This document shows positions 5,654-20,088 of a stretch of 20,088 bases of DNA, piece by piece. The stretch is from a virus. Both the position numbers and the translations under genes were made by a program. Where the stretch lies: the IMG/VR virus record IMGVR_UViG_3300032236_000465, positions 1 to 20,088 of that record. One strand, 5' to 3'. Position 1 is the stretch's first letter. Every line of letters begins with the position of its first letter. Below the pieces are notes generated by a model. It made no database searches. It was given only the letters and a program-made list of their open reading frames with translations, and was not told where the DNA came from.

Positions 5654-6202
5654 ATGTCGCAACATCTTCCACTTTGGTACATAGGAGCCATACCTCCAGC
5701 GGTGTGTGACTGGGCTACGGCCAACTATATGACCCTTGAGCCTAAAGACGCGACAATGGGAAATGCTGGCGATGAGCTGTCGCACCTCCATCGTAATACA
5801 ACCGTGCGGTTTGCCCCGATTGAGGATTGGTTTGGCCACATGCTTCATGGGTTTGGGTTGCACGCCAACAAGGTATGCAACTGGGGGTTTGAGTTAACCG
5901 GGCATGAGGCCGTTCAGTATGCTCAATACGGCCCTGAGCAACATTACAGTTGGCACACAGACAACTTCCCATTGATGGGTTTGGCGACTGATCGTAAAGT
6001 CAGCGTTGTGTGTTTGATGTGTGATACCACTGAATTTGAAGCAGGTGAATTACAGTTGCGTTTTCGGCAAGAGTACACGGCGCCATTGACCAAAGGCTCA
6101 GTGATTGCGTTTCCGTCTACTGTGGACCACCGCGTGACCCCCGTGACTGCTGGGCTGCGTGCTAGTGCAACGATGTGGCTTAACGGCCCAAGGTTCCGTT
6201 AA
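5654..6202 (+). CDS. 2-oxoglutarate/Fe(II)-dependent oxygenase, PKHD/prolyl-hydroxylase type
   Basis: A 182-residue double-stranded beta-helix dioxygenase that would couple decarboxylation of 2-oxoglutarate to hydroxylation of a substrate using Fe(II) and O2. The full ligand set is visible. His101 and Asp103 lie in YSWHTDN, His159 in VDHRVTPV and the 2-oxoglutarate-binding Arg169 in GLRASATMW. EAGELQLRF and KGSVIAFPS are the usual strands of PKHD-type hydroxylases (PiuC/YbiX and P4H relatives). It has an AAAGGA ribosome site and lies directly behind the collagen-like fibre A. Such enzymes are common in phages, usually with unknown substrate. Candidates are the neighbouring fibre (Pro or Thr), a host surface protein, or a nucleotide. 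The family is well supported; the substrate is not. Confidence 0.88.
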   Translation: MSQHLPLWYIGAIPPAVCDWATANYMTLEPKDATMGNAGDELSHLHRNTTVRFAPIEDWFGHMLHGFGLHANKVCNWGFELTGHEAVQYAQYGPEQHYSWHTDNFPLMGLATDRKVSVVCLMCDTTEFEAGELQLRFRQEYTAPLTKGSVIAFPSTVDHRVTPVTAGLRASATMWLNGPRFR

Positions 6203-15664: not shown

Positions 15665-18600
15665 ATGGCGTCGATTGAACAATTAAGAGCAATGCTTCCT
15701 GACGGAAGCAAAATGTCAGACTACGATGTCGTGGACGAAGTCTCGAAGCTCATCGGCGCTGACCCTAAAGACATTGCAAGCAAGCTAGGTTTTGGGGAAG
15801 TCAAAGGCGGAGTCACAAAGCAGCAAGGTTCGTCCTCTATTGACCGCTATCAGGCTGGTTTGTACGGCGTTGGCGAAGCTGCTGCTGAAGGATTGGGTGC
15901 ACAAGGGGTAGCAAACTGGATGACCAAGGGTCGTCAGGAAAACGAACTTCGCGCTGATATTGCATCTCAACGTGCCCGCGACTTGGGCGCAGTTGACTCT
16001 TGGGAGAACGTCCACGGTGTAGGCGATTTCGGTAGCTACGCAAAAGGCATGGCTATCCAGTCTTTACCTTATGCTGCGGAAGCTTTGGCTGGTGGTCTTG
16101 CCGCTCGCGGTGCTATGTCTGGCACTCGTGCTGCTCTTATTGCGGCTAAAGAAGCTAAGGATATTGCAGGTGCTGCACGCGCTCAACGTGCGTTAAATCT
16201 TGGTTCTGAAGTCGGCGGTGTCGCTGCTTCCTATCCATCTGCTGTGGGCGACGTGCTCAGCAACCAACGTGAGCAATCAGGAGAAACCCGTGGTGGTGTC
16301 GCTGCTGCTCTGGCCGTGCCATACGCTGCTCTGAATGCTATTGGTGTTGAAGGCGCTCTGATGAAGGGCAATGCTTTCAAGAACACAGTCAATTTGCTTG
16401 ACCGTGGCACTGGCCTGACCGGCGCTGCTACTCGCATGGCTGCCACTGGTGCTGGTGTTGCATTTAAAGAAGGTGCTTCTGAAACTGGTCAAGAGATGCT
16501 GAACCAAGTTGGCCGCATGTCGGTTGACGCAAACGAAGCATTCCTAAGCGATGCTGCCCAAGAGCAGTTCAAAGAGTCTTTCATCGGTGGTGCAACTCTC
16601 GGCGGATTGGCCGGTGCTGGTCTTGGTGGATGGCGTCGTTCGGGTAATCAACCCCCAGTGAATGATGTGTCTCAGGCCATTGGTAGTAAAGACACTACAC
16701 AGCCTGACATCACAACACAACAGTTCCAACCTCGTGCATTGCCAGACAACGTCATGGCCGGTATGGTCGGCGGCGCCGCAGACCCATTGGCCGGTCGTTC
16801 GACTATGTATGATGGTGAGCTCCCAGTGCTGCCTCCACAAAACGCACCTATCACGGCTCCAGCAATCGCAGGCGGTACAACCGATGTAGCGCAAGCAGCC
16901 ACAGGTATTTCGCAAGCTCAGTTCGCCGATCAGCAACGCCAGCAACAGGACGAGGCAAACCGCCTTGCCCGTGAAAAAACTTTTCAAACCCTTGGCGCAC
17001 AGTACTCACCTGAGAACACAGGACAGCTCACTATTTTTGGTGGCACGCTATTTGACGACGCAAAGATCAATGTGTTTGGTAACACCTTGGCTGCCAAGTT
17101 CAATGCGTTGCCCGAGACTGCCCACACTGTGGCCGATGCCATTGCCCAAGCTAACGAGCTGACTGGCGGCAAAGTAATCAACGTCAAGTTAGATGCGGGT
17201 AATCCCGTAGGCTCTGCTGACAAAATCATGAAGGCATTGGCTAAGACTGCCGATGCGTATCAAATCGGCCATGTACAAAACGTACAGCAGGCCGCAACAA
17301 TTCTTGAGACTTTGTCTCAGACCGAGAAGGGCGCTAAGCTAGACCAGCTCAACGCTATCCACTACGCCTTAACAGGCGAAGATACCACTGGCTACACAGC
17401 CGCTCAACAAGCCCAAGCTACCAAAGGAGCTAAAAATGGAAAACTGCAACTGCAAACCAATGCCGGGATTCGAGAAGTTCCAGTCTCAGGCGGACCAACA
17501 GAAAATGGCGCTGGAGGAAATGGGCCTGTACGACCCACTGAAGTTCAACCCGTCGGAGCAACAAGTGTCGGAGCGGGATCGCTTGACCTCCAAACTGGAC
17601 AGCCATCAGCAGGCGGAGTACGGCCAAGCGCCGGAAATGTACCCAATGTTGGCGGTGGCGAAGCCCCTTCGACGCAAGTAAGTGAGGCTCCAAGTGAAGC
17701 AACTCAACCTACCAAGCCCAAAGCCAAACTCGGCGTACCCGTCCGAGTTAAAGCGGCAGGTAAACAAGGGGCTCCAAGTGTTCAACCAACACCTGCTCCA
17801 GCTCCTAAAGCAACACAACGCCAAGAAGCCAAGCTAAGCCCGGCTGAGGAATTGTGGAACGACATGGACGCTACGGACACTCCGTATGCGTCGCTTACTC
17901 CTGCGCTCAAACAAGCATGGGAGAGGGCTGTCGAGACCAAGCAAGCCACTGGTGACATCCAAGAGCAGATCGCGGATCAAGCCGGTGATCGCGAGCAAGA
18001 AAGCAAAGCCGACCGCCTTATTGCTGGCGTGTTGCAAATGGTCATTCGCCCATATGGGCGTTTGAATGAAGCCTCTGCGCAAAAGAAGCGTGAGTTTTTC
18101 CAAGCCTTCTGGGGTGGCGCTAAGCTCGACTCGTTGCCAGAAATTGCAAAGTCCATGGGCATCACTCCCGATCAAGCAGCCAAATGGCATGCTGAACTGC
18201 CCGGCTTTTTAGAGAAGAACAGCGCACAAATCATTTCGGCTGCCGCTACTGTGGCTGAGAGCCAAGGCATGACCATGCGCGACTTGGAGCAATTGCTCGA
18301 AGGTATTGAGGCTAAGAAGCAGAAGAACGCCGCTGCCGCTGCTCAGATCACTGGTGAAGAGGAAGACACCGGCCAAGGTACGTCTGCTACTGAAGAGCCT
18401 GTTGAATCCGACACCACAGGTGAGGAAGAGTTTGGTAAAGAAGCCGCTGATCTGATTGGCGCTCGTGAAGAAGAAGGCCCTGCCTTTGAGCCTGAAGTCG
18501 GGGAAGAAGCTGAGGCTGCCCCTGACTTGAACATTCGTACCCGCAAGAGTCTGAGCGTCCAAGAGAAGTTCAATGCGGTGGACACTAACCAAGCGCGTAT

Positions 18601-20088
18601 CGTTAAGCTGATGGACTACCTTGCGTCCATTGCTGGGGCACAAGACAGCGATAAGTCTTTCCCCAAACGGCGCGTGGAAGCTGCGGAAGCCAAATACGAA
18701 ACAGCTCTGCTGGACTTGACCCAGCTGAGCAATCAAGATTTGCATGTCCTTGCCTATGACCTAACTCAAAAGGGTAACGAAGGCGAGGCGTCTGTCTTCG
18801 TGGAAGAACTGCAACACCGTTTGGAAGCGCAGAAGAAGATCGCTATCGAGCAAGCCAAGAAGCAAACTGCTAAGGCAACTAAGGAGAAACCCAATGCCGT
18901 TCAAGTCGAAAGCGCAAATGCGGGAAATGTTCGCCAACCAGCCGGAGTTGGCGAAGAAGTGGGCCAAGCTAACGCCGAACCCAAAAAGCCTGCCCGAACA
19001 CGTAAAGCCAAAGTCGAAGCCAAGCCAGTCGAAGAAGTCAAAGAAGTAAAGACCGATGCAGAAAAAGCTGCTGACGCATGGGATGCAGTTGTTAAAGATA
19101 TTCCCGGCGCACCCCCATTCATGGCATTGACCAAGGATGAGCAAGAGACGTTCATTGAGTACGGTGAAGGCAACTGGACTCGCGCTGACGTGGTCGCTGA
19201 GCTGAAGAAGCTCAATGCCGCCCAACCGATCAAGGCTGCCACTACTGACGAAGAACGCAAGAACGCAGAAGATCACGCTGCTGAGCTGGGCGGGACGGTT
19301 GTATGGCAAGAAGGCCCATGGGCTTTGATCCGTGGCTATTCCATCCTATCCGGTCAGCCTGTTTACCTCCCTGCAAATGGAACTTCTCGCTGGCGTAAGG
19401 ACATTGGGGGGCTGCCTGAGACTGTGCCAATTCCAGCGGAGATGCGAGCTAAGTTGCTCGCCGCTAAACAAGAAGTTGAGTCTACTGACGCTGCCCAACA
19501 CGCTGCCAATCCATTTATCAAGTTCGCTGGTAATGGCATGGCGATCTCTAGCGGCGTTGACCGGCGCCTTGGTGGCGTGGTTGCTGGCTGGAAGAACCTG
19601 CTGAACATTAAATCCAATGTCTACATTACGACACTGGAAGACGCCCGTGCCGATAAAGACAAATTCACCGGCCCTCATCGCGCCATTGGTTCTGCTGGCC
19701 TAGACGCCAACGAAGCTGGTTCAATGCGCAAGATGGGTAGTGACTATTACATTGCCTTCACCAAAGGTACTAGCTATTTGAAGATGCTTGAGACCTTGGC
19801 CCATGAACTTGGCCACCTCCACCAAGCTGAAGCATTTAGCAATGCACCTGACGATGTCCAGTTGGCTATCCGCGAAGCCCATTCTGAATTTGTCAAAGCC
19901 AACAAGGGCAAGACAGCCCGTGAGTTTGTAACTGCTCTACGTGCTCGCACGACAGGCCGCGCCACTAAGCTGCCAGCAGGCATCCAAGCTACTGAGCTCA
20001 CAGAATACTGGAGAAGTTTTTCTGAGTGGTACGCAGACCAAGTGTCCAAGTGGGCAACTACATCTGAGAAGCAGATCGGAAGAGCACA
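15665..20088 (+). CDS. Giant internal-virion / polyvalent-type protein with zincin motif, 3'-truncated
   Basis: One frame stays open from ATG 15665 (AAAGG six bases upstream) to the window end, at least 1,469 genuine residues. Residues 131-155, 183-195, 209-232 and 306-323 are Gly/Ala-rich hydrophobic segments (for example IGGATLGGLAGAGLGGW), preceded by FKEGASETGQEMLNQ, a pattern I know from large phage polyvalent and ejection proteins. Low-complexity linkers lie at about 586-732, 893-960 and 1058-1140; between them are helical domains. Near the end LAHELGHLHQ places HExxH at 1380-1384, and FSEWYADQ gives a plausible third zinc ligand, Glu1454. A membrane-active, protease-bearing protein injected with DNA is the likely role. 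Two small genes are nested in its linkers. The last codons (from 20073) are adapter, so the true C-terminus is missing. Confidence 0.85.
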   Translation, partial: MASIEQLRAMLPDGSKMSDYDVVDEVSKLIGADPKDIASKLGFGEVKGGVTKQQGSSSIDRYQAGLYGVGEAAAEGLGAQGVANWMTKGRQENELRADIASQRARDLGAVDSWENVHGVGDFGSYAKGMAIQSLPYAAEALAGGLAARGAMSGTRAALIAAKEAKDIAGAARAQRALNLGSEVGGVAASYPSAVGDVLSNQREQSGETRGGVAAALAVPYAALNAIGVEGALMKGNAFKNTVNLLDRGTGLTGAATRMAATGAGVAFKEGASETGQEMLNQVGRMSVDANEAFLSDAAQEQFKESFIGGATLGGLAGAGLGGWRRSGNQPPVNDVSQAIGSKDTTQPDITTQQFQPRALPDNVMAGMVGGAADPLAGRSTMYDGELPVLPPQNAPITAPAIAGGTTDVAQAATGISQAQFADQQRQQQDEANRLAREKTFQTLGAQYSPENTGQLTIFGGTLFDDAKINVFGNTLAAKFNALPETAHTVADAIAQANELTGGKVINVKLDAGNPVGSADKIMKALAKTADAYQIGHVQNVQQAATILETLSQTEKGAKLDQLNAIHYALTGEDTTGYTAAQQAQATKGAKNGKLQLQTNAGIREVPVSGGPTENGAGGNGPVRPTEVQPVGATSVGAGSLDLQTGQPSAGGVRPSAGNVPNVGGGEAPSTQVSEAPSEATQPTKPKAKLGVPVRVKAAGKQGAPSVQPTPAPAPKATQRQEAKLSPAEELWNDMDATDTPYASLTPALKQAWERAVETKQATGDIQEQIADQAGDREQESKADRLIAGVLQMVIRPYGRLNEASAQKKREFFQAFWGGAKLDSLPEIAKSMGITPDQAAKWHAELPGFLEKNSAQIISAAATVAESQGMTMRDLEQLLEGIEAKKQKNAAAAAQITGEEEDTGQGTSATEEPVESDTTGEEEFGKEAADLIGAREEEGPAFEPEVGEEAEAAPDLNIRTRKSLSVQEKFNAVDTNQARIVKLMDYLASIAGAQDSDKSFPKRRVEAAEAKYETALLDLTQLSNQDLHVLAYDLTQKGNEGEASVFVEELQHRLEAQKKIAIEQAKKQTAKATKEKPNAVQVESANAGNVRQPAGVGEEVGQANAEPKKPARTRKAKVEAKPVEEVKEVKTDAEKAADAWDAVVKDIPGAPPFMALTKDEQETFIEYGEGNWTRADVVAELKKLNAAQPIKAATTDEERKNAEDHAAELGGTVVWQEGPWALIRGYSILSGQPVYLPANGTSRWRKDIGGLPETVPIPAEMRAKLLAAKQEVESTDAAQHAANPFIKFAGNGMAISSGVDRRLGGVVAGWKNLLNIKSNVYITTLEDARADKDKFTGPHRAIGSAGLDANEAGSMRKMGSDYYIAFTKGTSYLKMLETLAHELGHLHQAEAFSNAPDDVQLAIREAHSEFVKANKGKTAREFVTALRARTTGRATKLPAGIQATELTEYWRSFSEWYADQVSKWATTSEKQIGRA
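17423..17429 (+). promoter_or_regulatory. Internal ribosome binding site for nested gene 1
   Basis: AAAGGAG, six bases before ATG 17436, lies inside the giant gene. It is a near-perfect Shine-Dalgarno sequence, as strong as those of the stand-alone genes in the window, and supports independent initiation in the +1 frame. Confidence 0.7.
17436..17681 (+). CDS. Nested small gene 1 within the giant gene, +1 frame (81 aa)
   Basis: An 81-residue soluble protein read in the +1 frame of the giant gene and fully contained in it. It begins MENCNCKPMPGFEKFQSQAD, continues with KMALEEMGLYDPLKFNPSE and ends APEMYPMLAVAKPLRRK. The balanced, charged composition with aromatic residues looks like a real protein, unlike typical shadow frames. 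In the host frame the same stretch is a Gly/Pro/Ser/Ala/Val linker. That linker uses about ten GGA glycine codons, whereas flanking parts use mostly GGT/GGC, as expected if the +1 frame (needing GAN codons) constrains it. The internal AAAGGAG supports a start. Family not recognised; CNC near the N-terminus could bind metal or be incidental. Confidence 0.68.
   Translation: MENCNCKPMPGFEKFQSQADQQKMALEEMGLYDPLKFNPSEQQVSERDRLTSKLDSHQQAEYGQAPEMYPMLAVAKPLRRK
18881..18886 (+). promoter_or_regulatory. Internal ribosome binding site for nested gene 2
   Basis: AAGGAG, seven bases before ATG 18894, lies inside the giant gene. Sequence and spacing mirror the site of nested gene 1. Confidence 0.72.
18894..19049 (+). 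CDS. Nested small gene 2 within the giant gene, +1 frame: MPFKSKAQ-type phage protein (51 aa)
   Basis: A 51-residue basic protein in the +1 frame of the giant gene, fully inside it. MPFKSKAQMREMFANQPELA is followed by KKWAKLTPNPKSLPEHVK and a Lys/Ser tail. The opening 'MPFKSKAQ.R.MFA', the central Trp and the 'TP....LPEHV' ending are hallmarks of a small protein family that I recall from many tailed phages as a stand-alone gene of unknown function. This makes a chance frame very unlikely. AAGGAG lies seven bases upstream. The host frame here is a Lys/Ala/Glu/Val-rich disordered linker. The Lys-rich C-terminus and compact helical core hint at nucleic-acid or protein binding, but no role is established. 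Confidence 0.8.
   Translation: MPFKSKAQMREMFANQPELAKKWAKLTPNPKSLPEHVKPKSKPSQSKKSKK
20073..20088. other. Sequencing adapter remnant at contig end
   Basis: The last 16 bases, AGATCGGAAGAGCACA, equal the first 16 bases of the Illumina TruSeq read-1 adapter. They are therefore almost certainly not phage DNA. They keep the giant frame open by chance, so its final residues from this point (IGRA) are artefactual. Confidence 0.95.

Follow-up and report, generated by a model that had tools for sequence, protein, structure and literature searches.

The window analysed here, a virus record of 20,088 bases, carries a small phage gene, gene C, that lies wholly inside a giant open reading frame on the same strand. 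We conclude, with a probability of about 0.8, that gene C is a genuine small phage gene dual-coded within the giant gene and expressed by internal initiation, its product most likely being a head or packaging protein. Gene C spans 18894..19049 (+), including the TAA stop at 19047-19049, and translation from its ATG at 18894 gives the 51-aa protein MPFKSKAQMREMFANQPELAKKWAKLTPNPKSLPEHVKPKSKPSQSKKSKK. The offset between the two start codons (18894-15665 = 3229) places gene C in the +1 frame of the giant. A Shine-Dalgarno (SD) sequence, AAGGAG, is located at 18881..18886 (+), 7 nt 5' of the ATG. This start codon, its upstream AAGGAG and the 51-residue +1 frame had been pointed out in a first-pass annotation, and the window sequence agrees with that description in each respect. 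Gene C is more than a chance ORF because its product matches the protein family phrog_1375, because the product has about 400 relatives in IMG/VR, and because ATG, frame and SD are kept in relatives that were found through the host gene only. Gene C is thus a conserved coding sequence.

The first-pass annotation had likened the product to a widespread small phage protein and proposed a profile search as a check. In such a search the gene C product matched phrog_1375 with E 3.4e-5, residues 3-50 aligning with positions 17-64 of the 70 in the profile. The match covers most of the protein, by which we assign the product to the family, and 41 of the 50 scanned relatives matched the same profile, so that the proposed family membership is borne out. 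Such proteins had also been described as normally having a gene of their own, and this is often the case, as free copies occur among the IMG/VR relatives. Matches to the product in a phage collection began at E 2e-4 by tblastn, and 68 elemovirus records had a tblastn match. Pfam and NCBIfam returned no meaningful match, and a PDB sequence search returned chance matches only. The predicted fold, of low to medium confidence (mean pLDDT 75), consists of two short helices and a basic Lys-rich tail; a viral fold search with this model gave nothing at E 0.001, the best rows being uncharacterized phage proteins. The likeness to phrog_1375 is one of sequence family, whereas the library entry (function unknown) records the protein family only and not the nesting. 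In the papers searched we found no description of phrog_1375 as a nested gene, in either of its two unrelated kinds of host.

The host giant gene occupies 15665..20072 (+), comprises more than 1,460 codons and lacks its 3' end; we regard it as polyvalent or DarB-like from its position and from the domains of its relatives. No Pfam family, and hence no recognised large-polyvalent domain, was found in the window's own truncated giant. An LPD23 domain is present only in the giant of one relative (L011), and the giant's relatives display weak C-terminal similarity to POI1126 gp30. The internal virion protein of the window resembles those of podoviruses, for example Burkholderia BcepIL02, and podoviruses of this type carry a DarB-like giant at the place corresponding to the window giant. 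With its place behind the virion genes and these two features of its relatives, the host giant is of the same kind as the polyvalent or DarB-like antirestriction giants such as BcepIL02 gp70 and POI1126 gp30 (PMC5512222). In contrast to the window, the stretches of BcepIL02 and POI1126 gave no match to the small-protein profile, nor did those of Itty13 and Maribacter phage Panino. Around gene C the giant is poorly conserved and linker-like, in keeping with the enclosing linker that had been suggested at first pass. At the contig end, positions 20073-20088 read AGATCGGAAGAGCACA, the first bases of the Illumina TruSeq adapter; the contig end is artefactual and the giant gene is cut there.

Homologues of gene C are nested in two kinds of host gene. 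The first are giants of about 900-3,900 aa, which include those of the Flavobacterium elemoviruses and of MW202828. The second is an unrelated gene of ~400 aa between the portal gene and a head structural gene, in which the nested copy occupies the same frame as in the giants. We call this gene scaffold-position because only its place between portal and head structural gene fits such a role; it had no PHROG match, to a scaffold family or to any other. The nesting of phrog_1375 in a second, unrelated gene is a point absent from the first-pass annotation. As in the window, the giant 'structural protein' gene of a Flavobacterium elemovirus (gp20 of NC_062743) encloses a small-gene homologue in this frame, although most of its sequence bears no similarity to the window giant, and the NC_062743 record does not annotate the nested gene. 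Very different nested proteins (MPIKSKKQQQWL..., MPFKSEKQRRWMW..., MPFKHKRQMIAML...) occur at the same place and frame of the scaffold-position gene in L244, L246, L259, L265 and similar loci. In a contig of a Sulfuritalea MAG (L090), a copy at 6001-6147 is nested in a 1,746-aa ORF of the bacterial MAG, possibly as part of a prophage or a binned phage.

A first set of loci, fetched mostly by means of the small protein, comprised 199 distinct ORFs. Of these, 106 lay inside a longer ORF of the same strand, all with one frame relation, a count that includes one locus (L204) better read as free. The long frame of L204 looks like a terminase whose upstream extension is open by accident, and we rejected it as a nested copy. 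We disregarded antisense 'nesting' in six loci, which is probably a spurious effect of GC-rich DNA, and some of the 'free' calls represent nested copies truncated where the contig ends. Because this set had been chosen by the small protein, searches were run with the host genes only. The giant N-terminus, never the small protein, was used to collect 43 giant relatives, and the nested ORF was present in 37 of these, or in 37 of the 38 that could be assessed; in five (L343, L349, L352, L360 and L363) the sequence apparently stops at, or short of, the nested site, and one (L350) is a true absence in which the giant ORF is shortened. The C-terminal part of the ~400-aa gene was used to collect 79 newly fetched scaffold-position relatives, of which 70 contained the nested ORF, one was cut (L315) and eight lacked it. 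These eight and L350 indicate that the nested ORF is dispensable in place there. Every copy found in the two sets starts with ATG and lies in the same frame. An SD match of at least 4 nt was present in 32 of the 33 giant copies scored, compared with 13% of control internal ATGs, counts that are not phylogenetically independent. The SD is kept in the giants although the upstream host sequence differs between relatives, and elemoviral copies are often without a clear SD. The loss of the +1 frame or its start among relatives, which had been named as evidence against the gene, was not the pattern seen, both being kept in all but one of the assessable giants.

Selection was examined by comparing substitutions in the overlap with those in the host flanks. 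Among 13 pairs of giants and 32 pairs of scaffold-position genes, which are not phylogenetically independent, the overlap rates at small-frame positions 1/2/3 were 0.11/0.11/0.24 in the giants and 0.17/0.15/0.30 in the scaffold-position genes, and the flank rates at host positions 1/2/3 were 0.13/0.08/0.33 and 0.15/0.09/0.33, respectively. The rate at the host third position is thus lower in the overlap (0.11 and 0.15) than in the flanks (0.33). A scan of the giant identified only two places where the host wobble position is conserved, at about 17420-17680 and 18896-19000 in window coordinates, corresponding to gene A (described below) and gene C. We conclude that the nested small frame is under purifying selection. 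Were the small frame a by-product of a conserved peptide motif of the giant (AVQVES...), with the openness of the +1 frame incidental, the host-frame peptide over the overlap should be recognisable across relatives, as indeed it is. We consider this extremely improbable, since substitutions avoid the third position of the host and use that of the small frame, the SD is conserved, and homologues occur as free genes without a host frame.

Allelic differences were also observed around the nested site. For most of the giant's length the window shares about 90% identity with one relative (L321), but over about 18455-19050 identity is 0.2-0.7; a block of ~600 bases around gene C has been replaced between the two, and the new allele keeps frame and start. 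In several scaffold-position pairs, host identity is 66-82% and small-protein identity 36-48%.

In the proposed mechanism, internal initiation at the AAGGAG-ATG of the late mRNA would yield a strongly basic protein of 51 aa, and ribosomes translating the giant would decode this stretch in their own frame into a hydrophilic linker. From the conservation of the SD, the ATG and the frame we consider it very likely that gene C is translated in this manner. Programmed frameshifting from the giant, by which the small frame would serve as an alternative C-terminus, would also account for the shared strand and the constant +1 relation, but it is very improbable: the small frame of many relatives extends no further than about 6-11 codons 5' of the ATG, the sequence preceding the ATG varies from relative to relative except at the SD, and this ATG is also the start codon of the free genes.

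Additionally, we identified a second conserved nested gene in the same giant, beyond what had been described at first pass. Gene A, at 17436..17681 (+), encodes 81 aa of no known family in the same +1 frame and is preceded by a strong SD, AAGGAG, at 17424..17429 (+), 6 nt 5' of its ATG. Its own profile matched 49 loci; in 47 it lies inside a giant in the same frame, and the remaining two are cut by contig ends. Gene C is found in the same giant in 40 loci. Searches against protein families and named phages gave no match for gene A. A doubtful ORF, B, begins with GTG directly behind the gene A stop (17682..17837, +); it is present in many relatives and variable between them, and we did not accept it as a gene, there being no clear selection signal.

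Some copies have evidently changed place. In L034, L077, L208, L211 and L223 the small gene is free, at most 10 nt behind the giant's stop, and the ORFs preceding it show homology to parts of giants that hold a nested copy. Copy number was checked in 17 records, and each of the eight with a match contained exactly one copy. The eight scaffold-position records lacking the nested ORF and L350 had no copy elsewhere, several of these being short contigs. In the elemoviruses a homologue of the scaffold-position gene is present, yet the small gene sits in the giant. Together the relocated free copies, the single copies and the elemovirus arrangement indicate that it is the gene that is kept and not the linker.

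The constancy of the frame calls for an explanation. All 98 of 98 nested copies use one frame, whereas free genes have either sense frame open with equal frequency (18 of 65 each), and we judged stop-codon permissiveness insufficient as a cause for this reason. GC-matched recoding, a crude null, even favours the other frame. The mean charge of the nested proteins is +11.8 and that of the host translation of the overlap is -7.0, the Lys codons AAG AAG becoming Glu codons (GAA GAA) one frame over. Either common descent of the overlap or charge complementarity could be sufficient to account for the constant frame.

A role in head assembly or DNA packaging, in which the gene C protein would act in trans, is suggested by gene neighbourhood, because free copies adjoin genes for terminase, portal and head proteins. 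We compared 52 large genes next to free copies with protein families: a single portal family accounted for 11 of them and a single terminase-large family for another 11, further matches fell in related families, and Pfam gave portal and terminase matches as well. The scaffold-position host follows the portal. We propose this role tentatively, at somewhat less than even odds. An alternative, suggested by the swapping of alleles between relatives, is a role in host interaction. Gene C would then be real and nested, but a rapidly exchanged host- or phage-interaction factor (e.g. for counter-defence), delivered or made late. The swap between the window and L321, the low small-protein identity in scaffold-position pairs with higher host-gene identity, and the polyvalent or DarB-like kind of the giant are consistent with such a factor; the location of free copies with terminase and portal genes argues against it, and we regard it as unlikely.

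Lambda Rz/Rz1 and phiX174 B, E and K are familiar cases of a small phage gene enclosed by a larger one and out of frame with it, and gene C resembles these in arrangement. They differ in that the proteins are unrelated, that they represent lysis or small-genome overlaps with no giant virion gene, and that, unlike phrog_1375, they are not known to occur in two unrelated host genes. Conserved nested genes of tailed phages may escape annotation, since full overlap is something that gene callers avoid, and the elemovirus and Manatee Spring records examined list no nested gene. For elemoviruses with a cultured Flavobacterium host, translation and function are directly testable. We give even odds to a broader reading, in which the giant hides at least two conserved genes (A and C, and perhaps B) in one alternative frame and gene C has moved as an exchangeable cassette among free positions and two unrelated virion genes, always taking the frame that turns its Lys-rich code into a Glu-rich linker. 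Gene A suggests that giant polyvalent genes may hide more genes. With phrog_1375 occurring free, nested in the giant and nested in the scaffold-position gene, the family provides a natural series on gene enclosure and frame use.
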